NCBI GenBank assembly: GCA_900113385.1
Contig: FOPE01000011.1
Coordinates: 1-64,000, forward strand
Length of the DNA: 64,000 bases
Direction of reading: 5' to 3'
DNA from: Lachnospiraceae bacterium C7
Lineage (GTDB): Bacteria > Bacillota > Clostridia > Lachnospirales > Lachnospiraceae
Part shown: one piece after another, positions 3,890 through 49,952 of the stretch
Numbering within the stretch: the first letter of the stretch is position 1
Layout of the letters: every line of letters starts with the position of its first letter
Notes under the pieces: model-generated
What the model was told of the DNA's origin: nothing
The model's database searches: none
Seen by the model: the letters and a program-made list of their open reading frames with translations, nothing else
Position numbers and translations under genes: made by a program

Positions 3890-5695
3890 CTAAACTTCAC
3901 ACAAAGCAACTGCTTCTACTTCAACTGAAATGAACTCTAAATTTGTTACATCAAAAAGTCCTTTATCTGTAAGTTTAACCTCTGGTATTACTGGAAGAGC
4001 CATAAATGCTAATGACATAATGCCATCTACACCTTCTTTTACTCCAACTTCCTTTTTAATAATTTTATACATATTTTCTAGTTTTTCCATAAGAACTTCA
4101 CCGCTTTCATCACTCATTAAACCTGCAATCTTAAGTGGTAACGCATTGTAAATCTTCTTATTCTTAGTTACTACAACTCCACCTTGCTGTTTTATAAGTT
4201 CATTTATGGCAAATTCTATTTCTTCATTACTAGTTCCCACTGCAATAATATTATGGGAATCATGAGCTATTGTTGATGCAATGGCTCCATGTTTTATTCC
4301 AAATCCTCGAAGATATCCTACACCTACATCTCCTCTTCCATGATGACGCTCTGCTACCACAAGTTTGGCTACATCTTCTTTTTCATCAAAAACGAAATCT
4401 CCTTTTTCATTGATTTCTACTACTGCTTCTCCTTTAGAAGTAACTATACTTCCTGGTGTAAGGTCTATAACATTTACTTTTACTAATCCTCGTTCTTTTT
4501 CAATTCTAAGTCTATCTATAGAAAAGTCTTTTACATGTACACTTCCTGAAACTGCACTTGAATCAATTCTTTGAACATGACATAAGTATTCTCCATTGTG
4601 TGCAACATGTTTTCCCTCTATAAATACATCTTTCATTTTAAAATCATTTAAATCTTCTACTAAGCAAATATCCGCTCTTTTACCTATTGCAATTGCTCCT
4701 CTGTCCGTTAAACCATAACACTCTGCTGCATTAATGGTTGCCATTTGAATTGCTATAATTGGATCTATTTTTTCTTCTACACAAATTCTAAGATGCTCGT
4801 CTAAATCTCCATTTTTAAGTATGCTAACAGGTTGTCTATCATCTGAACAAAGCAAACATCTTCTAGAATTGCCTTCATTTACTCCTTTTAAAAGTGCTCG
4901 TAAATTTTTGCATGCTGAACCTTGTCTAAGTAGCACATACATTCCTTTTCTTAGACGTTCTTGCATTTCTTCAACAGTTTGACATTCATGATCTGTCATT
5001 ATTCCTGATGCAATATATGCACTTAATTCCTTACCGGTTATTCCTGGAGAATGTCCATCCACTGGAGCATTTCTTTCATTAGAATACAAGACTTTCTTTA
5101 AAGCATCTTCATCACACCCTATGATTCCAGGTGCATTCATAAATTCTCCTAGACCTAAAACTCTATCATCTTCTAGAATTTCTTTTACGTCCTCAGAGTC
5201 TAAAACCGCTCCACTATTTTCAAATGGTGTAGCTGGTACGCAGGATGGCACCATATACTTAATATCAAGAGGCGCTACTTCACCTGCATCAAGCATATAT
5301 TTCATTCCTGCTTTTCCGCATACATTTACGATTTCATGTGGATCTGCAATTATTGTTGTTGTACCATGTGGAACAATAAGTCTAGATATCTCTTCTGGTG
5401 TAACAAAAGATGACTCAATATGAATATGACCTTCTATAAGCCCTGGAATCGCATAGTTGCCTTTGGCATCTACTACTTTTTTAGCTAATTTTACAGAGTT
5501 GTCTTCTTCATTAGCAGGGCTGTTTTCTAAGCTAATCTCCTCAATGTCTACTATTACGTTGTCTGTTACGTAAATATCTGCTCCATAGATTTCTCTAGTT
5601 AATACATTTACTAACTTACAATTTCTAATAAGTAAATCTGCTTTCTCTCTTCCGCTTGCTACTGCAATTCTCTGTTTTAAATTCTCAATTTTCAT
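3890..5695 (-). CDS. ade: Adenine deaminase
   Basis: A 601-residue enzyme that deaminates adenine to hypoxanthine and ammonia for purine salvage. It has the amidohydrolase layout of bacterial Ade: metal-binding GLIEGHIHIESS (about residues 84-95), ADPHEIVNVCG, GEFMNAPG, VDGHSPG, DHE and SDDRQP, then the C-terminal Ade domain (HHGRGDVGVGYLRGFG, AHDSHN). Length is within the usual 570-600 range and no key residue is missing. It is monocistronic. No purine riboswitch was recognised in its leader. Confidence 0.95.
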   Translation of the reverse strand: MKIENLKQRIAVASGREKADLLIRNCKLVNVLTREIYGADIYVTDNVIVDIEEISLENSPANEEDNSVKLAKKVVDAKGNYAIPGLIEGHIHIESSFVTPEEISRLIVPHGTTTIIADPHEIVNVCGKAGMKYMLDAGEVAPLDIKYMVPSCVPATPFENSGAVLDSEDVKEILEDDRVLGLGEFMNAPGIIGCDEDALKKVLYSNERNAPVDGHSPGITGKELSAYIASGIMTDHECQTVEEMQERLRKGMYVLLRQGSACKNLRALLKGVNEGNSRRCLLCSDDRQPVSILKNGDLDEHLRICVEEKIDPIIAIQMATINAAECYGLTDRGAIAIGKRADICLVEDLNDFKMKDVFIEGKHVAHNGEYLCHVQRIDSSAVSGSVHVKDFSIDRLRIEKERGLVKVNVIDLTPGSIVTSKGEAVVEINEKGDFVFDEKEDVAKLVVAERHHGRGDVGVGYLRGFGIKHGAIASTIAHDSHNIIAVGTSNEEIEFAINELIKQQGGVVVTKNKKIYNALPLKIAGLMSDESGEVLMEKLENMYKIIKKEVGVKEGVDGIMSLAFMALPVIPEVKLTDKGLFDVTNLEFISVEVEAVALCEV

Positions 5696-10091: not shown

Positions 10092-11747
10092 TTATTTATC
10101 TTTTTTATTTATTTGTTTTTCTTTATTTTTTTGACTGCATTTTTTTAGCCTTGTAATTTCACATTCAATCATTTCTGTCATTTCTTTTTTGCTTCGAACT
10201 AGCGTTATTCTATTTCCACCTGTTTTTTTACTATAATACATGGCTTCATCTGCTACTGAAGTAAAATCCCACAATTTATTATCCTCCTCTGGGATATTGT
10301 TGCATATTCCTTGAGATATGGTAAATTTTGGGAAATCGTTTTCCTCTAATAATGTTTTCAATTTATTTTTAATGACTAATGCTGTTTCTATAATTTGGTC
10401 ATCTGTATATCCTTTATATATAAGCATAAACTCATCGCCACCATATCTAGCGCAAAAAAGATTGTCATTTTCAACACTTTTTAACACATCCGCAAGTAAC
10501 ACTAGACAACTATCTCCCATTGCATGGCCATATGTATCATTGATTTCCTTAAAGTTGTCAATATCTATCATCTCAACTGCAAATCTATTACCTCTAATAC
10601 AAATGTTTTCAAAAGCATTATCTGCTTCTTCACTAAGTTTTCTTCTATTTGCAATTTGAGTAAGTTCATCTTTTCCAACACTTTCTTGCAAAAGCATATT
10701 GGTATGTTTAGAAATCATAAGAGAATTTTTAAGTTCTACTATCATTTTCATAATTTTCAAATCAAATTGATTTTGTTGTTCTCTCTTTAGATAATAATCT
10801 TGCAATGCATCGACTAATTCTTCTGTTCTATTTTGCTTTTTTAACAAATCAATTTTAAAACTTAAAATTCTTGTCTGCAAATAAGGAAAAAAATCATGAA
10901 TATATTTTTCCATTTCCTTAACTACGATTTCTAAAGTATCTAGCCTTTCTTCTTCCCACAAAAAAGCCATGAATTCTACACAACTCCAAAAAAAATCAAT
11001 TTTATATTTACATTTAAAAAAGGCTTTTATAGTTTTTTTAACGCATTTTTCTTCTAGTTGCTTATCTTGTATAAAATTCGCCCAAACTGTTTCTAAAAGA
11101 GCGTAATCTAAGCCTAATTCTTCATTTTCCACATCATTAAACTCATATCTTAACTCTTCTATATATCTACTTGCTTCATCTTTTCGACCAATTTTAATGG
11201 AAACACGTGACAATACTATTAATACTGCCTTGCATATATTTTTATACCTAGGTGTATTTTTAATAAAATCGCAATGGGCTTTGCTTAATTCTCCATACTT
11301 TAATGCTGAATCAAAATTATTTGTTCTGTTACACATCTCACTATAATTAGCATAAACCATGGCGCCTAAATAATGTATTTCATATTTTTCTACTATTTTC
11401 ATAGCTTCTTGAAAACATTCTAAAGAATTAACTATATTTCCTTGATATGTAAAAAGAATTCCTAATAAATTATAGCATTCTCCTAACATTTTATGATTAT
11501 TTACTTTATTAAATTTTGCTATAGCTTTCTTTATATGCATCAAACAATTGTCACCGTTACACAATGTATAATACGCATCACCTATATAAAATTCTGCGTA
11601 ACCTATCAAATTATCATCACTTACACGGTTTGCATATTTTAAAATTTCTTTTGAAATTATTATAACCTCTTTGGGCTGGTCAAAACGTATCCGCCCTATT
11701 GTATCTAACATGTTTCGGACTTCATTGTCATACCCAGATTTATCCAT
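10092..11747 (-). CDS. Cytoplasmic diguanylate cyclase with N-terminal TPR repeats
   Basis: A 551-residue protein with no membrane segment. Residues 1-330 are helical tetratricopeptide-like repeats (for example AEFYIGDAYYTL, ECYNLLGILFTYQGN, ANYSEMCNRTNN). A GGDEF domain follows at about 360-530, with DELTQIANRR and an intact RYGGDEF active site, so it should make c-di-GMP from two GTP. The RxxD inhibitory site normally just upstream of GGDEF is absent (NDNL is there instead), so product inhibition at that site is unlikely. The C-terminus is a Lys/Asn tail encoded by short repeats. The signal sensed by the TPR part is unknown. Confidence 0.88.
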   Translation of the reverse strand: MDKSGYDNEVRNMLDTIGRIRFDQPKEVIIISKEILKYANRVSDDNLIGYAEFYIGDAYYTLCNGDNCLMHIKKAIAKFNKVNNHKMLGECYNLLGILFTYQGNIVNSLECFQEAMKIVEKYEIHYLGAMVYANYSEMCNRTNNFDSALKYGELSKAHCDFIKNTPRYKNICKAVLIVLSRVSIKIGRKDEASRYIEELRYEFNDVENEELGLDYALLETVWANFIQDKQLEEKCVKKTIKAFFKCKYKIDFFWSCVEFMAFLWEEERLDTLEIVVKEMEKYIHDFFPYLQTRILSFKIDLLKKQNRTEELVDALQDYYLKREQQNQFDLKIMKMIVELKNSLMISKHTNMLLQESVGKDELTQIANRRKLSEEADNAFENICIRGNRFAVEMIDIDNFKEINDTYGHAMGDSCLVLLADVLKSVENDNLFCARYGGDEFMLIYKGYTDDQIIETALVIKNKLKTLLEENDFPKFTISQGICNNIPEEDNKLWDFTSVADEAMYYSKKTGGNRITLVRSKKEMTEMIECEITRLKKCSQKNKEKQINKKDK

Positions 11748-43197: not shown

Positions 43198-43242
43198 TGT
43201 TGTTTAGCCTTTCCTAAAATATTTTAACTTTTTTTCAAATAC

Positions 43243-43270
43243 ATTGTATCATGTTTTGGGAATTAATCAA
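43243..43270 (-). promoter_or_regulatory. Promoter of phosphoketolase
   Basis: TTGATT (43270-43265), a 16-bp spacer and TACAAT (43248-43243) on the minus strand. AGGAAAGG is the ribosome site. Confidence 0.65.
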
Positions 43271-43669
43271 TAGAAATATTAAAAACAATTTTATTTTGTT
43301 AGAATTGAACAATTTTCCAGATTTTTTTTGACTATTTTTTCCAAAATAAATTGAAGTATTTTGCTTTTTTATAGTTGTTTTCAAATTATTTTAGTTTTTA
43401 TTATAAGCATAACTAATACTTCTATAATATATTCTTTTAGATTTTTTTAAAATTAATCAATTTTAATTCTTGTTTTTTAGTTATATTTTGTTTTTTCTCC
43501 ATATTATGTTTTTAAAAATCTAATTTGTATTATTATTTACTTATTAAAAGCGGTTAGGGGGAGTTTCCATTTTTATATTTTTTTAATGGTTTTTATTTAT
43601 CTTTTATAAAACGGTTTTAAGCGCTAATATTTTTGCTATTTTTAGTTAATTTTTTTTATTAAAACCTTT

Positions 43670-43730
43670 TTGTCATTTTTTTGTCAATTTTGTCAAGTCT
43701 ATTGACAGTTTCCTTTAATTTTTATATTCT
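43670..43730 (+). promoter_or_regulatory. Promoter of the RiPP operon with upstream TTGTCA direct repeats
   Basis: TTGACA (43702-43707), a 17-bp spacer and TATTCT (43725-43730). Upstream, TTGTCA occurs at 43670, 43681 and 43690, about one helical turn apart, ending just before the -35 box. This looks like an activator site. The rest of 43271-43669 is very AT-rich with no gene. Confidence 0.6.
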
Positions 43731-43801
43731 ATTTCTATACTAGTTTTTATGAATATTCATGTAGGATATTGCTAGTAAATAAAAATTAGGAGGACACTAT
43801 T

Positions 43802-43927
43802 ATGAAAAACTTAAACAATAATCTTTGGACAGATATTTCTGTAGAAGAAATGGAGACAAGAGAAGAATTTTGTTTCTGGAATGGATGTTTTAATTTTTCT
43901 TGCTTCTGTTTCACATTTAATTGGTAA
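43802..43927 (+). CDS. RiPP precursor peptide with four Cys-Phe pairs (41 aa)
   Basis: A 41-residue peptide gene too short for ordinary gene finding, with a strong AGGAGG at 43788-43793. Residues 1-22 form a polar acidic leader (LWTDISVEEMETREE). Residues 23-41 are FCFWNGCFNFSCFCFTFNW: four Cys (24, 29, 34, 36), each followed by Phe, with seven Phe and two Trp in 19 residues. The leader/core division and the location just upstream of a radical SAM/SPASM enzyme, a membrane protease and an exporter mark it as a ribosomally made, modified peptide. Cys are the likely sites of thioether linkage. I know no named precursor family with this pattern. Confidence 0.82.
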   Translation: MKNLNNNLWTDISVEEMETREEFCFWNGCFNFSCFCFTFNW

Positions 43928-43979
43928 TCATTTTACCTTTTAACACTCAACACTAACGACATTAAAAATGTCTATTTTT

Positions 43980-44015
43980 ATCTGTCGCCAAATTCTTCAT
44001 TTTTTGGCGACAGAT
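43980..44015 (+). terminator. Intercistronic hairpin between precursor and maturase
   Basis: A perfect 13-bp stem ATCTGTCGCCAAA / TTTGGCGACAGAT (43980-43992/44003-44015) with a 10-nt loop. Only a weak T stretch follows, so it may act as a leaky terminator or a 3' stabiliser that raises precursor over enzyme levels. Such hairpins are common after RiPP precursor genes. Confidence 0.75.
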
Positions 44016-44077
44016 TTATGCCTAGTAGGGCATATTTCTATGTTAATCACAAATCAATTTTTATCGAGGAATTTTTT

Positions 44078-45472
44078 ATGACTACATTTACCAAATATTT
44101 TTTATTATATAGAATAAAAGACGACAACCATCTATTAATCAATACTTTTACTGGAGCACTTGATATTGTAGATGATAAAGCTGCTAAGCAAATTGAGGAG
44201 TTTTCTAATGGAGATTTATCTGCTATAGCACCTTCAGATCCACTTTTTAACCAGTTAAAGCAGCGTGGATACCTATTCACTGAAAAAGATGGCGAGAAAA
44301 AACTTATTGCTAAAGCAAAGGCCTATGATGATTTTTTGTATGATCAATCTTTCTGTGGTGAATTCATTATTTTACCTACCCTAGGTTGTAACTTGCGATG
44401 CACCTACTGCTTCGAAGATAATGACCAACATATTAATCTTAAAGAAATGTCTATGGAGCAACTTCACACAATATTAGACTATATTTCCCAAGTCAAAAAA
44501 GAAAACCACCTTAAGCTAAAAAACAAAAATCAAAAATTAAAAATTCGTATTTTTGGTGGAGAACCTCTTTTACCAAAAAATCGCAATATTGTAGAAGAAA
44601 TTTTACGTTTTAGCAAGGCTAATGATATTGAAGTAAACATCGTATCCAACGGTACTCTTATTGACTTTTATATGGATCTTTTAACTGAATATCGTGACGT
44701 TTTAAATATCCAAATCACTTTAGATGGTCAAAAAGAAATACATGATTGTCGCCGTATAAAGGCTGATGGTTCTGGTACTTTTGACATGATTTGTAAAAAT
44801 ATAAATAAATTAATTGCCAACAATATTAGAATAGCTTTACGTGTAAATGTTGATGCAGACAATATTAACGGATTGCCTGATCTTTATAAAATTATTCAAG
44901 AAAACGGTTGGGATAAATCTGCTCATATTTTGCCTTACGCATCTCCTGTAGTAGATTTTTCTAGTCAATCCACTACTACCTTAGAGGAATCTGAGCTTTT
45001 AGATGGATTAATCCGCAATGGCTATAAAACCGATGGTTCTGGTATTATAAAATTTGTTGTATCACCTTGTATTGGATACCTAAATCAATTTTTTAATCCA
45101 GCTTCCAAAAACAACTTTTGTAAAACTCATTACTGTGGTGCTACTTCAAAAACTGAGCTTTGCTTTTCACCTGATGGCTTAATCACTAGTTGCCTTACCT
45201 ACAGTGGCAAAGGGAAGCACAGTATCGGACATTTCGATGAAAATGGGGTTTATTTCGACAAAAACAGCTACGATAAATGGACAAAACGTTCTGTATTTAA
45301 CATTCCAAAATGTAAAGAATGCAAATACGCTTTTGTTTGTGGTGGCGGTTGTCCTATTAAAGCTCTTGATCAAAATGGATCTATGGATGACACAGTTTGT
45401 AGCGATATAAAAAATACAATCGACTTATATGTCAAAAAAATTATTATTAAACAATTAGAAAAACGCTTATAA
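44078..45472 (+). CDS. Radical SAM/SPASM peptide maturase
   Basis: A 464-residue enzyme expected to install radical crosslinks, most likely Cys thioethers, in the adjacent precursor. Residues 1-75 are a small RRE-like domain. The SAM cluster Cys are C104, C108 and C111 (CNLRCTYC), with FGGEPLL at 159-165. The SPASM domain is complete: C353-x13-G-x4-C372, then C412-x2-C415-x5-C421-x3-C425, then C441, enough for two auxiliary clusters, plus an extra C362. The ATG at 44078 follows GAGGA (44066-44070). An in-frame ATG at 44018 overlaps the hairpin and lacks a ribosome site. The complete SPASM set distinguishes it from the YydG epimerase. Confidence 0.9.
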   Translation: MTTFTKYFLLYRIKDDNHLLINTFTGALDIVDDKAAKQIEEFSNGDLSAIAPSDPLFNQLKQRGYLFTEKDGEKKLIAKAKAYDDFLYDQSFCGEFIILPTLGCNLRCTYCFEDNDQHINLKEMSMEQLHTILDYISQVKKENHLKLKNKNQKLKIRIFGGEPLLPKNRNIVEEILRFSKANDIEVNIVSNGTLIDFYMDLLTEYRDVLNIQITLDGQKEIHDCRRIKADGSGTFDMICKNINKLIANNIRIALRVNVDADNINGLPDLYKIIQENGWDKSAHILPYASPVVDFSSQSTTTLEESELLDGLIRNGYKTDGSGIIKFVVSPCIGYLNQFFNPASKNNFCKTHYCGATSKTELCFSPDGLITSCLTYSGKGKHSIGHFDENGVYFDKNSYDKWTKRSVFNIPKCKECKYAFVCGGGCPIKALDQNGSMDDTVCSDIKNTIDLYVKKIIIKQLEKRL

Positions 45473-45521
45473 CCAATTAAAAGACACAATAAAAGTATAA
45501 TATTAAATAAAGGGTATATTT

Positions 45522-46721
45522 ATGGATTATAACTATTTAAAAGGAAAAAAATACACTATTTCAGATTGTGATAATTCTGCTAAGCGGATAATGTCCTTTA
45601 GCAAAGAACACCATGTAAAAATATCTTCCACTGCCAAATTAATTTTTGATTGTTTTGATGGTGAAAATTCTTTAGATGACATAATAAATATTTTAGCTCT
45701 TAATGAAATAGATATTTCAAAAGAAGAACTTATAGATATTATTGATAAGGTATTTTTACCTAACAATATGTTTGAAGGCCAAGCTTATCAGCGAAAAAAC
45801 GATTCTTTACTGTGGTTTAAAATTAATTTAATTGAATCAGATAAACTTGCTAGTTTTTTCAGTAGGCTTACCTTCTTATACAAAAAAACTTTTGCACTCC
45901 CTATAATTTTTTTAATTATTACATCAATCGTTTTATCTGGGTGGCAAATGTTTGATAGAGGATTATCAACATCATATACTAACAGCTTAAAAGTCCTTCT
46001 TATCGTATATATAGATATGATTATTCACGAATTTGGACATATTATTGCAGCATATTTTTTTAATATCCCTGTGGGGAAAATTGGTATGGGGATATACTTG
46101 TTTTACCCTGTAATGTTTGTGGATATGTCAAACACTTGGCGTGCCTCTAACAAACAAAGGGTACTTGTTGATATAGGTGGTATTTACTTTCAAATGATGC
46201 TACTAATTCCCCTTACAGCTCTTGGTTTTATTACAAAGGATACCACTTTTTTTGTTACTAATATTTCAATTGCCGTTGCTGTTGTAATTAATCTATTGCC
46301 TATTTTAAAACTTGATGGCTATTGGCTGTTTTGCGATGGCTTAGGCTTAGATAATCTATCCCAACATGCATTTGAAAAAATATTAGGTAAAGGAAAAAAT
46401 GCATCACGAAAATATGTATTTTTTTCTTGGTTATATGTAATAACTATTTTTGTATCAGTTGCCATGGCCCTCATATATTCTATAAGTATATTTAAAAATA
46501 TAGATTATGTGGCTTTGCAACTCAAAAAAATAATTTATATGTTGACAAATAACGATATTTATAATGGCCTTGATGCTTTCAACAATATTTTTATTTATAT
46601 ATTGCCACTTTTATTTTTAAGCTTCATGGCTATAAGTATTTTATTTAACGTAATTGCAGGTTTTATTAAAGGTATTTTTAATTTCTGCGATTTGAAATTT
46701 AAAGGAGAGGTAAATGATTAA
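45522..46721 (+). CDS. M50-type membrane metalloprotease with N-terminal PqqD/RRE-like domain
   Basis: A 399-residue membrane protein. Residues 25-85 (VKISSTAKLIFDCFDGENSL, then DDIINIL) match the PqqD-like fold that binds RiPP leaders. Then come about eight membrane helices. The zinc site is HEFGH (169-173) with the third ligand in LKLDGYW (D265), the layout of site-2/M50 peptidases and of YydH. It probably removes the leader or releases the modified peptide at the membrane. It lies 49 bp after the maturase and overlaps the ATPase gene by 8 nt. Fusion of a recognition domain to the protease is the notable feature. Confidence 0.85.
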   Translation: MDYNYLKGKKYTISDCDNSAKRIMSFSKEHHVKISSTAKLIFDCFDGENSLDDIINILALNEIDISKEELIDIIDKVFLPNNMFEGQAYQRKNDSLLWFKINLIESDKLASFFSRLTFLYKKTFALPIIFLIITSIVLSGWQMFDRGLSTSYTNSLKVLLIVYIDMIIHEFGHIIAAYFFNIPVGKIGMGIYLFYPVMFVDMSNTWRASNKQRVLVDIGGIYFQMMLLIPLTALGFITKDTTFFVTNISIAVAVVINLLPILKLDGYWLFCDGLGLDNLSQHAFEKILGKGKNASRKYVFFSWLYVITIFVSVAMALIYSISIFKNIDYVALQLKKIIYMLTNNDIYNGLDAFNNIFIYILPLLFLSFMAISILFNVIAGFIKGIFNFCDLKFKGEVND

Positions 46722-47394
46722 ACTTGAACACATTAGCAAAACTTTTAAAACTGGATCTACTTCACAAAAGGTTTTAGATAACGTAAATTTTCAAATTAAT
46801 GATAATGATTTTATAACTATAAAAGGGCCTTCTGGCTGTGGAAAGTCAACTCTTTTAGGTATTACATCTTTGTTACTTTCACCAGATCATGACATACGAA
46901 GTGCCCTCTACTACGACGATTTCAAAGTGAATTTTAAAAAAGAAAAACAACTTGAATCCCTTCGCATGCACAACATTGGTATGGTTTTTCAATCAACCAA
47001 CCTAATTAGCTCTTTATCAGTTCTAGAGAATGTACTTTTACCAGTGGATTATAAAATTATTCCTAGACGTGACGCCATTGAAAAAGCTAAATTACTTCTT
47101 ACAAAAGTAGGATTACGTGAAAAAAAGAATTTTAAAATTTCTTTATTATCAGGTGGTGAAGCACAACGTGTATCTATTGTTCGTGCTTTAATGAATGATC
47201 CTAAAGTTTTATTTTGTGATGAACCTACAGGTGCCTTAGACAAAGAAACTAGTTCTGAAATTTTAGAACTTTTACTTGAATTTTCAAAAGAAAACAATTC
47301 TGCTCTTGTAATTGTAACTCACGATAATGATATTTGGATGTCCGGTAAACGCAAAGTCATTTTAGAGGGAGGTCGCTTAATTGAGAACCCTTAA
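46714..47394 (+). CDS. ABC transporter ATP-binding protein (MacB/LolD type)
   Basis: A 226-residue ATPase: Walker A GPSGCGKST (about 37-45), Q-loop FQSTNL, signature LSGGEAQRV, Walker B VLFCDEPTGALD and the H-loop THD. This type pairs with FtsX-like permeases. GGAGAGG lies inside the protease gene. With the next gene it should export the mature peptide or give immunity to it. It overlaps the permease gene by 14 nt. Confidence 0.92.
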   Translation: MIKLEHISKTFKTGSTSQKVLDNVNFQINDNDFITIKGPSGCGKSTLLGITSLLLSPDHDIRSALYYDDFKVNFKKEKQLESLRMHNIGMVFQSTNLISSLSVLENVLLPVDYKIIPRRDAIEKAKLLLTKVGLREKKNFKISLLSGGEAQRVSIVRALMNDPKVLFCDEPTGALDKETSSEILELLLEFSKENNSALVIVTHDNDIWMSGKRKVILEGGRLIENP

Positions 47395-49753
47395 TATTTT
47401 TACCAGTTATAACTTAAAACAATTTAAATCTAGCAAAATTTTATATTTTTTTATCTGCATCTCCGTGACTATAGCTACTTGCATGGCATTGTCCGTTCCT
47501 GTAATAATCAATACAATGACTACTGCTTCAGAAAAAAGCCAAAAACGCATTAATGGTGCTGACATTAAAATTGAGATGAATTATAAATCCCAAAATGTCT
47601 GCGACAAGCTAGATTCACTAGTGGATAGTGGCGTAATTAAAAATTACACTTATAAACAAGCTTACAATGCTTCTATACACCACCAAAAAAACGATTACTA
47701 CATTGACCTAGTAACCGAAGATAATCTTGCTGATAACGAAGCTACTGTTTCTAGTACAACTGCTGAAAAATTAAATTTACATTTAAAAGATAAGATAAGT
47801 GTTTTAGGAGAAAATTACACTATAAAATCTATTGATGATTTAAACTTTGGCGTATCATCTCAAGCATCACAATTGGGGTACGTAAAGCTAAACTCTAAGA
47901 ATATATCCATCGATACAAAGCCGTATGCCCATTTATACCTTATAAATGCCAAAAGTGATTCTTCTTCAAAAATAAAATCTCTTAAAGCTCAACTAAAAAA
48001 AGACTTTAAAAAAGATTTTAATTCTAATTGCCTAATTAGTTCAACTGAAGATGTAGCTAAGGAAAATGCTGAAAAAATAAATAGCACTGTCTTAATTATA
48101 AACATGTTAAATACTATCGTATTTTTATTTACACTTTTTGCAATTATTTCATGTTTAAATATGATTTTATCCTTACGCAACAAAGACATTGCAGCTATGA
48201 AACTTTCAAATATTCCTTCAAAAAATATTAAAAATGCCTTTTTGTTGGAATTTTTTAGTACCACAACTTTAGGTATAATTTTAGGAGCCATTCTTAGTAA
48301 TAAAATCAGCTTTCTAATGCTAAAATACAATGGAATAACTTCTAAAAACACCTTTAGTATTAACTCTGCTTTAACAATATTTGTAGGTTGCATTTTGTTT
48401 GAAATCATCTATATTTTATATGGTTTTACTCTAGCAAAAAAAATTAAACATTTAAAGCCTCTAGCTGTTATAAAAGGAGATGAACCTGCTACCTTTAAAA
48501 GACGCCATGGTTTTTCAATGATTTTGATAACCATAATCTCCATGTTTGTGTATTCGATCTATGTTGGAACTATAACTGCATTTATTAGTAGCGTAATTAT
48601 TTTTATAGTTTTACTTTTACTTTTTGTTGTTTCAATTTTGCTAATATATATTTTGTCATCTATCCCGCTTTCATGGAAATGTGGCAACTATACCTTCAAA
48701 AAAATCAAAAGCAGAAAATGCTCAAATGCTCTTGTTGTTGTATCACTAGTGTTTATGAGCTCCTTTATCCTCTTTGGTTTTAGACTTCCACAAGGGCTTA
48801 CAGACAGCTATTCTAAGGGACTAAACGACACTTTACCTTATAATCACATAGCTTTTGTTTCTGCGAAAAAAGATTTTAACCCTATCAAAAAAATAACTTA
48901 TTCTAAATTTGATGTAAACTTTGATTGCACAACTATAGACCCAAGTAACAACTCATTAGTACCTGTTATATTTGCTAAAACATCTGAGGAGAATTATGGT
49001 CTTAAATATAAAATTAAATCTGGAGTTAATCTTTTTGAAGGTTCAGGTGTTCTAATTTCAGATGTATTTGCTAAAGACCATAATTTAAATCTTAGAGACA
49101 ACTTAACTATTTCCTATAATGACATTTCTGCTTCATTTAAAATAAAAGGTATTTATGTTTCAAAAAATATAAATCCAACAATTATTTTATCTGATAACAC
49201 AAGTAATGTTTTAACTGATGCTAAAGAATCATTTTCCAAGGAAATGTACTTAATGAACTGTGATTCTGCTACCATTACAGCTGAAGCTAAATCCCTAAAG
49301 GGTGCTATGTTTTTAAATATAAGTGATTTAAATGATGCCTTACTTAGCTTACTTGACGGCTATGTAAAAATGCTTAGACTATTATCTATCATTTGTATAA
49401 TTGTAGCTATTATATTTGGTTTAAATATTTGTCAATTATTTAGCATAAAAGATGGTAAAGAATACGCTATAATACGCGGTTTAGGACTTACTAAAGGATT
49501 TTTAACTTGTAGTAATGCTTTAGAATTAATTCAGATAGATTTTATCTCTTCTGTTCTTTCTATAGCCTTTTACTACACGGTATCCACTTTATTGTCCACC
49601 AATTTATTTAAAGAGACTTTCGTTTTTTCTGTTTTTGACGGATTTTTAATTATACTTTTAAACACCTTAATTGCTTTTATAATTTTCAGCAAAAGGCAGA
49701 TTCATATCCAAAAGAAATCAAACGATTTTACATTACTAAAGGATTACGACTAA
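47381..49753 (+). CDS. FtsX-type ABC transporter permease
   Basis: A 790-residue permease with two FtsX-like halves: a membrane helix at 18-38, a large outside domain (about 45-230), helices at about 245-375, a central set (about 390-470), a second outside domain (480-660) and three terminal helices. The start is TTG at 47381, supported by GAGGGAGG 8 nt upstream inside the ATPase gene; no closer ATG has a site. Partner of the preceding ATPase and last gene of the RiPP operon. MacB-like large-domain permeases often act in peptide export or resistance. Confidence 0.88.
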   Translation: MRTLNIFTSYNLKQFKSSKILYFFICISVTIATCMALSVPVIINTMTTASEKSQKRINGADIKIEMNYKSQNVCDKLDSLVDSGVIKNYTYKQAYNASIHHQKNDYYIDLVTEDNLADNEATVSSTTAEKLNLHLKDKISVLGENYTIKSIDDLNFGVSSQASQLGYVKLNSKNISIDTKPYAHLYLINAKSDSSSKIKSLKAQLKKDFKKDFNSNCLISSTEDVAKENAEKINSTVLIINMLNTIVFLFTLFAIISCLNMILSLRNKDIAAMKLSNIPSKNIKNAFLLEFFSTTTLGIILGAILSNKISFLMLKYNGITSKNTFSINSALTIFVGCILFEIIYILYGFTLAKKIKHLKPLAVIKGDEPATFKRRHGFSMILITIISMFVYSIYVGTITAFISSVIIFIVLLLLFVVSILLIYILSSIPLSWKCGNYTFKKIKSRKCSNALVVVSLVFMSSFILFGFRLPQGLTDSYSKGLNDTLPYNHIAFVSAKKDFNPIKKITYSKFDVNFDCTTIDPSNNSLVPVIFAKTSEENYGLKYKIKSGVNLFEGSGVLISDVFAKDHNLNLRDNLTISYNDISASFKIKGIYVSKNINPTIILSDNTSNVLTDAKESFSKEMYLMNCDSATITAEAKSLKGAMFLNISDLNDALLSLLDGYVKMLRLLSIICIIVAIIFGLNICQLFSIKDGKEYAIIRGLGLTKGFLTCSNALELIQIDFISSVLSIAFYYTVSTLLSTNLFKETFVFSVFDGFLIILLNTLIAFIIFSKRQIHIQKKSNDFTLLKDYD

Positions 49754-49837: not shown

Positions 49838-49877
49838 AAAGCTCATCAGCTTCTCCCCTTTGAAACTGATGAGCTTT
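49838..49877. terminator. Bidirectional terminator closing the RiPP operon
   Basis: AAAGCTCATCAG pairs with CTGATGAGCTTT (49838-49849/49866-49877), with A and T runs. Also serves the convergent symporter gene. Confidence 0.88.
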
Positions 49878-49952
49878 ATTAGTCTTTAATATCTCTTAAT
49901 AAGAATATTATTTAACATTAATCCCCTGAATAATATTCTTAACAATATTTAA

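Follow-up and report, generated by a model that had tools for sequence, protein, structure and literature searches.

The window analysed here is a stretch of 64,000 nucleotides of DNA from Lachnospiraceae bacterium C7, and at positions 43802-49753 of its plus strand it carries five adjoining genes for a short precursor peptide, a radical S-adenosylmethionine (SAM)/SPASM maturase, an M50-like protease, an ATP-binding cassette (ABC) ATPase and an FtsX-type permease (Table 1). The positions of the open reading frames (ORFs) agreed with the original prediction, which had described five contiguous genes at this site. Since the ATPase gene shares 8 nt with the protease gene in front of it and 14 nt with the permease gene behind it, the arrangement is as in a single transcription unit. 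Judged from its sequence, the locus is an operon of the type that encodes ribosomally synthesized and post-translationally modified peptides (RiPPs), where a modifying enzyme accompanies a short precursor whose leader is conserved and whose core varies; this assignment, also proposed originally, was supported by the window, by two close relatives (loci L133 and L134) and by a wider set of loci. Beyond the observed gene content, we hold with moderate confidence that the operon is complete and that it would produce a Cys- and Phe-rich RiPP which is thioether-modified, freed from its leader, exported and membrane-active against related bacteria.

Table 1. Features of the operon and its flanks, in coordinates of the window.
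Feature	Position	Strand	Remarks
Promoter-like site TTGACA-17-TATTCT	43702..43730	+	Upstream of the precursor gene; consensus scan, 10 of 12 matches; weak evidence
Precursor gene	43802..43927	+	41 aa; leader about residues 1-22, core about 23-41 (FCFWNGCFNFSCFCFTFNW); homologues in L133 and L134
Two hairpins in the precursor-maturase gap	43980..44034	+	Folding compared with shuffles
Maturase gene	44078..45472	+	Radical SAM/SPASM, 464 aa
Protease gene	45522..46721	+	M50-like (site-2 type) membrane protease, 399 aa
ATPase gene	46714..47394	+	ABC transporter ATPase, 226 aa
Permease gene	47381..49753	+	FtsX-type, 790 aa; TTG start, preceded by AGAGGGAGG
Inverted repeat AAAGCTCATCAG / CTGATGAGCTTT, then ATT	49838..49880	+	Found by eye, unscored

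The precursor gene has a ribosome binding site (AGGAGG) 8 nt 5' of its ATG, and its product contains four cysteines (residues 24, 29, 34 and 36), each directly followed by Phe. Nine of the 19 core residues are aromatic and none is charged, thus the claim of a 41-residue precursor with four Cys-Phe (CF) pairs and a very aromatic core could be confirmed. Among the 382 window ORFs of at least 30 residues it is the only one with at least three CF dipeptides. When the 19-residue core was shuffled four CF pairs appeared in 0.9% of the cases, and six in 0.013% when the core of the L133 homologue was treated similarly. The CF pattern goes beyond chance, and its conservation in two further operons is stronger proof of this than the shuffles. 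The peptide had no match in Pfam or NCBIfam (E <= 1) or in PADLOC (E <= 0.001). Six of the seven family precursors scanned against NCBIfam (E <= 1) were unmatched; that of locus L146 gave two matches (E 0.0009, with 19 bits against a cut-off of 91, and E 0.17), which we read as chance.

L133 and L134 belong to another genus of the phylum and contain relatives of all five operon proteins (identities between L133 and the window: maturase 44%, protease 33%, ATPase 43%, permease 27%). The leader LWTDxSVExxETREE was observed in all three precursors, 12 of the 16 residues from LWTD to REE(F/Y) being identical between the window and L133, and Cys stands directly before Phe in 4 of 4 cases in the window and in 6 of 6 in both L133 and L134. 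A short ORF without a match in the family libraries used might be taken for a chance frame beside an orphan maturase. This was rejected as practically impossible, since L133 and L134 repeat both the leader and the CF core, and the codon changes between these two loci are mostly synonymous: the precursors (42 codons) differ by five synonymous and one non-synonymous change (residue 2), the maturases by 60 and 20, respectively. As near-copies, L133 and L134 count as one, which leaves two independent cores behind the CF rule. It had been considered beforehand that homologous loci might lack the small ORF; instead, the relatives carry it and the two closest ones keep the CF pairs.

The start of the maturase is most likely at 44078, with GAGG upstream, rather than at 44018, which adjoins strong hairpins. 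The enzyme exceeds the Pfam cut-off for Radical_SAM and has the CxxxCxxC motif at residues 104-111, and its seven SPASM cysteines (C353, C372, C412, C415, C421, C425, C441) are invariant in alignments of three, five and seven enzymes, in agreement with the full SPASM cysteine set that had been predicted. A stricter SPASM motif, which also requires Gly, is absent from 6 of 38 enzymes and present in the window maturase. A tree of 38 maturases united the enzymes of the three CF loci in one clade (98/93), with L133 and L134 as the nearest rows to the window, and SCIFF-type maturases adjoin this clade on a long branch and without firm support (93/89). This tree includes 15 of the 30 loci listed from the CefB-model scan of genomes of the order, together with five maturases which we labelled SCIFF-type; L131 was left out of it.

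Among the best 25 of 72 NCBIfam families, the top scores of the maturase were obtained with models of maturases for Cys-rich or thioether peptides, namely CefB (188 bits, cut-off 600), rSAM_vs_C_rich (161, cut-off 525), Clo7bot (129, cut-off 600), geopeptide (122, cut-off 400) and PapB (NF047865, of the freyrasin-type ranthipeptides; 119.5, cut-off 340). DynA (99.6 bits), the SCIFF maturase TIGR03974 (85.5, cut-off 425), ryptide (81) and the cyclophane maturase YhhB (76) were also matched, and for the L133 maturase the ryptide model ranked fourth and DynA fifth. The original prediction had allowed for a tight clustering with some characterised family of CF precursors, which was not found, as no cut-off among these 25 models is passed. 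A profile of seven family maturases, compared with solved structures, placed 5wgg first (E 5e-39, with the alignment starting close to the N-terminus), followed by an anaerobic sulfatase-maturating enzyme (7.5e-23), 8vpo (2.6e-20), ChlB (9e-16), SkfB (4.7e-14), MoaA (9e-12) and 5v1q (2e-8). We take 5wgg to be CteB, the thioether-forming SCIFF maturase, and 5v1q presumably represents SuiB. Since the nearest solved relative is 5wgg, thioether crosslinking is our best guess, drawn from the relatives of the maturase. Such a bond runs from Cys to the alpha carbon in sactipeptides and to a non-alpha carbon in ranthipeptides. A Viperin-like defence enzyme was also considered and rejected, the scores with PADLOC pVip (58 bits) and NCBIfam viperin (56.6 against 180) being taken as general radical SAM likeness.

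The aromatic-rich core and the presence of DynA, ryptide and YhhB among the matches might also suit an enzyme which makes carbon-carbon or aryl crosslinks on Phe or Trp in a cyclophane-like manner, while the cysteines would end as disulfides or free thiols. According to the excerpts of PMC6231123 and PMC8326336, a linker cysteine like Cys331 of the window maturase occurs in SuiB, a carbon-carbon cyclase; in the excerpts of PMC6231123 it completes the auxiliary cluster I (Aux I) in SuiB, whereas CteB has an open site. Nevertheless, we consider carbon crosslinking unlikely, as the core cysteines are as conserved as the Phe residues, and the models for Cys-rich and thioether peptides as well as 5wgg score higher, with 5v1q at just E 2e-8.

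Several observations weigh against the production of a thioether-modified RiPP as described above. Cys331 is present in all three CF maturases and in none of the four others of the seven-enzyme alignment, and by analogy with SuiB it could ligate Aux I instead of leaving the site open as in CteB; its presence would speak against a strictly CteB-like active site. The scores of the maturase below every curated cut-off count on the same side, and so do the Pfam scan, where a PqqD domain was found in none of the seven family maturases, the weak PqqD match in two of five members of the protease family (best E 0.014), and the poor single-sequence structure predictions, with mean predicted local distance difference test values of 42.2 (maturase) and 49.9. 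Furthermore, in L133 and L134 the order of maturase, protease, ATPase and permease is as in the window, but the precursor gene comes last and not first. Compared by position, the cores of the window and L133 are identical at 7 of 16 residues, which is marginal (P 0.02-0.08); the conserved element is a dipeptide rule, not a ring map.

A tentative and rather doubtful extension of the thioether proposal is that the Cys-Phe pairs define a new RiPP class, where the CF maturase with its Cys331 would read each CF as one unit and join the thiol to a neighbouring Phe, resulting in a compact, uncharged thioether ladder. In subtilosin A the Cys-Phe bonds connect distant residues, unlike those of the proposed ladder between neighbours. 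Nor would the ladder resemble the rings listed in the excerpts of a review (PMC8326336), which are of the Cys-Asp, Cys-Thr and Cys-Asn types.

The protease had been described as an M50 enzyme with an RRE-like (RiPP recognition element-like) domain. Its motifs HEFGH and NLLPILKLDG are present, but the Pfam M50 score of 23.4 lies under the curated cut-off of 27.2 and the RRE-like part amounts to a weak PqqD-like match at residues 30-70 (E 0.034). The ATPase passes the Pfam cut-off of ABC_tran, and the permease that of FtsX, with two FtsX stretches. The best NCBIfam match of the protease is the daptide protease NF041824 (92.8 bits, below the cut-off of 300), daptides being compared by this protein only, and with the YydH/LiaK model NF058609 it reached 62 bits against a cut-off of 225.

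In the excerpts of PMC7026026 the epipeptide operons (yydFGHIJ/epeXEPAB) have the same order of precursor, radical SAM enzyme, M50-type protease and ABC pair, thus the original claim that the gene order copies yydFGHIJ holds as an analogy of similar order. The window enzyme is a SPASM protein of 464 residues compared to the 309 positions of the YydG model, and the window core is Cys-rich. The YydG/EpeE model TIGR04078 (cut-off 300) had no match (E <= 1) at the window locus nor at the operons of four other genomes, giving 0 of 5 genomes over the cut-off, compared to 1 of 14 in the control; epipeptide membership was ruled out by this result, the YydH/LiaK cut-off being also unreached. The gene order and the 62 bits of the protease would fit an enzyme of the epipeptide kind, where the modification consists of D-amino acids, acting by epimerisation or by another change of residues that leaves no crosslink, but in view of the same two models and of the Cys-rich core this is very unlikely.

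With the SCIFF (CteB) and ranthipeptide systems the window shares the nearest solved sequence 5wgg, the SPASM cysteines and a Cys-rich core behind a leader; it differs in the extra Cys331 and in the M50, ABC and FtsX genes, and the SCIFF-type loci inspected have neighbours other than those of the window. CefB is the best NCBIfam match of the maturase, and three cysteines of the window precursor (24, 29 and 34) follow at intervals of five residues, nevertheless the every-fifth spacing of the CefA/CefB system fits three of the four window cysteines and not the cores of L133 and L134. This spacing and the score of 188 against 600 ruled out Cef membership; among the matches listed, none of 392 genomes of the order exceeded the cut-off of the CefB model NF038107. 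By the YydG model the operon would thus not be an epipeptide, and by the curated cut-offs neither SCIFF, PapB, Cef nor daptide.

The literature search, with most subscription journals outside its coverage, retrieved no paper on 'Cys-every-fifth' or on CefB with radical SAM, nor, by title and abstract, on a radical SAM or thioether Cys-Phe (CFCF-like) peptide; what it did yield, by title and abstract, included reviews and papers on other families. The precursor family is unnamed by the models and the literature searched. The cluster may already be part of the atlas of radical SAM RiPPs that Clark and Seyedsayamdost published in 2022, and an earlier description is possible.

In the pathway that we propose, the leader (LWTD...ETREE) would be held by the N-terminal part of the maturase, which can be aligned with the same part of 5wgg, and perhaps by that of the protease too. 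The radical SAM/SPASM enzyme would modify the core, most likely through thioether bonds at Cys, and the membrane protease would then remove the leader, a function of M50 proteases for which EpeP is a precedent in the excerpts of PMC10885120. The ABC/FtsX pair might export the product and/or protect the producer; the excerpts of PMC7026026 assign YydIJ a minor role in the resistance of the epipeptide system. The hairpin behind the precursor gene probably keeps the precursor mRNA in excess. The predicted product, uncharged and aromatic, would probably be membrane-active, as suggested by its composition, and might be used against related bacteria.

A LytTR response regulator and a GHKL kinase are encoded just upstream of the L133 operon (L133, 3523-5525), and AgrB and a GHKL kinase near the operon of L041 (7322-9293); it is possible that these two operons are under quorum-sensing control. 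These regulators near relatives, and the clustered cysteines, which could bind metal, would also be compatible with a product of the same biosynthesis that serves as a signal or metal-binding peptide and not as an antimicrobial. We regard this role as improbable: no such regulator was recognised beside the window operon, where the SNF symporter alone of the two direct neighbours was scanned, and Agr-type genes often control antimicrobial peptides too.

Having recurred in two independent cores, the CF pattern can no longer be seen as an isolated curiosity, and the position of every Cys before Phe gives a definite rule that the maturase might follow in recognising its substrate. The wider loci suggest that one kind of leader and protease serves several Cys-rich cores, and such sharing could help to predict the substrate choice of radical SAM maturases. 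There is a realistic chance of new chemistry at the CF operon, which may encode an undescribed kind of modified peptide.

No close maturase was found in 35 other genomes of the genus, several of them incomplete (best E 5.6e-22), therefore the operon looks accessory in the genus. Searches with the protease, counting the window's own genome each time, found 7 of 397 genomes in the family (E <= 1e-6), 7 of 391 in the class and 6 of 398 in the phylum (both E <= 1e-15). In the genus of L133 and L134, with genomes mostly of 5-8 Mb, 15 of 100 genomes had a protease match at E <= 1e-20, eight of them below 1e-70, and L133 and L134 are the CF loci among these eight. The maturase search of 148 genomes of the corresponding family gave seven at E <= 1e-60, where only L133 and L134 are of CF type.

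Eleven further loci (L041, L098, L099, L128-L132, L144-L146) have related leaders and an M50 gene with other Cys-rich cores. Their leaders end near E(E/N/T)R(D/E/P/T)E, the Cys-rich core follows, and a maturase gene is found alongside except in L098; those of their maturases that were aligned with the window's are 26-33% identical to it. LCCWNCCFQI, C-x4-C and GCWxYC are among the core types. L099 and L128 have the core ACINLCCWNCCFQI and two maturases followed by protease, ATPase and permease, which is the window order with one extra maturase, while the core is LCFNCTICCDNCCWNCCIQF in L144 and WCIDCCFQI in L145 and L146. Tandem precursors, many with C-x4-C, occur in L041 and L129-L132, and L098 has four precursors, three with GCWxYC. 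The precursor alignment comprised 21 rows, without those of L130 and L131. The two tandem maturases found in each of L099, L128, L144, L145 and L146 fall in two separate clades and perhaps perform two different modifications of one precursor.

In one genome (G962; loci L098 and L135) the four precursors and the protease lie at about 4.42 Mb and the maturase, as two fragments separated by another ORF, at about 3.45 Mb, and the operon looks scattered by insertion elements. On the minus strand of L101, near relatives of the maturase and the M50 protease, two small ORFs (5322-5576 and 11203-11436) with a leader-like LSITEMENRLEF and Cys-Asp repeats CDGICDGICDKICD possibly represent another core type of the wider family. 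The weaker protease relatives L046-L051 and L100-L106 were screened for small ORFs with at least three Cys and were not counted as family.

The unannotated mobilizable Muribaculaceae plasmid CP061010.1 (L044, 8871-18812) codes for a maturase of the radical SAM type and an M50 protein and has a small precursor ORF (ECFTCTLCFTCGEFL), whose leader is less similar. Its maturase is placed elsewhere in the tree, at the end of a long branch, thus the CF pairs of the plasmid may have arisen separately from those of the window. L045, a short contig in a genome of the window's own family, agrees with part of L044 in the lengths and starts of its ORFs, either by contamination or by transfer, and was not counted. 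The scan of viral contigs with the window maturase gave no match, and with a three-row profile four distant loci. By tblastn 73 plasmid and 27 phage records were obtained with the window maturase, 159 plasmid records with the L133 maturase and 63 with the protease, all under 60% identity; the L133 precursor had no match on plasmids at E <= 10, and no comparable precursor was seen at the Sarcina, Rhodococcus and faecal phage scaffold matches inspected. In view of these searches, phage or plasmid cargo was rejected. The scan of genome contigs gave one partial match of 30%, resembling another radical SAM family.

The intergenic region upstream of the operon (43198-43801, 604 bp) is 81% A+T compared to 69% for the window and contains overlapping TGTCAA/TTGACA inverted repeats at the promoter-like site, whose -35 element is one arm of the repeat TGTCAA-5-TTGACA (43691-43707); the consensus scan gave 8 sites in the region against 6.6 expected. 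Behind the precursor gene, the first hairpin is a perfect 13-bp stem (arms 43980-43992 and 44003-44015) and the second (44017-44034) a terminator-like stem with a T-rich tail, the region folding with z -6.1 and -7.7 (two cuts) relative to shuffles. This pair is probably an attenuator or an mRNA stabiliser. The folding covered seven loci of our own selection, and in the six others the stretch behind the precursor gave z -1.7 to -3.2, being weak in L128 and L134, where 9 and 7 of 200 shuffles folded equally well; a shared device for excess precursor mRNA is possible, weak in these two of six. The inverted repeat 3' of the operon is a possible terminator.

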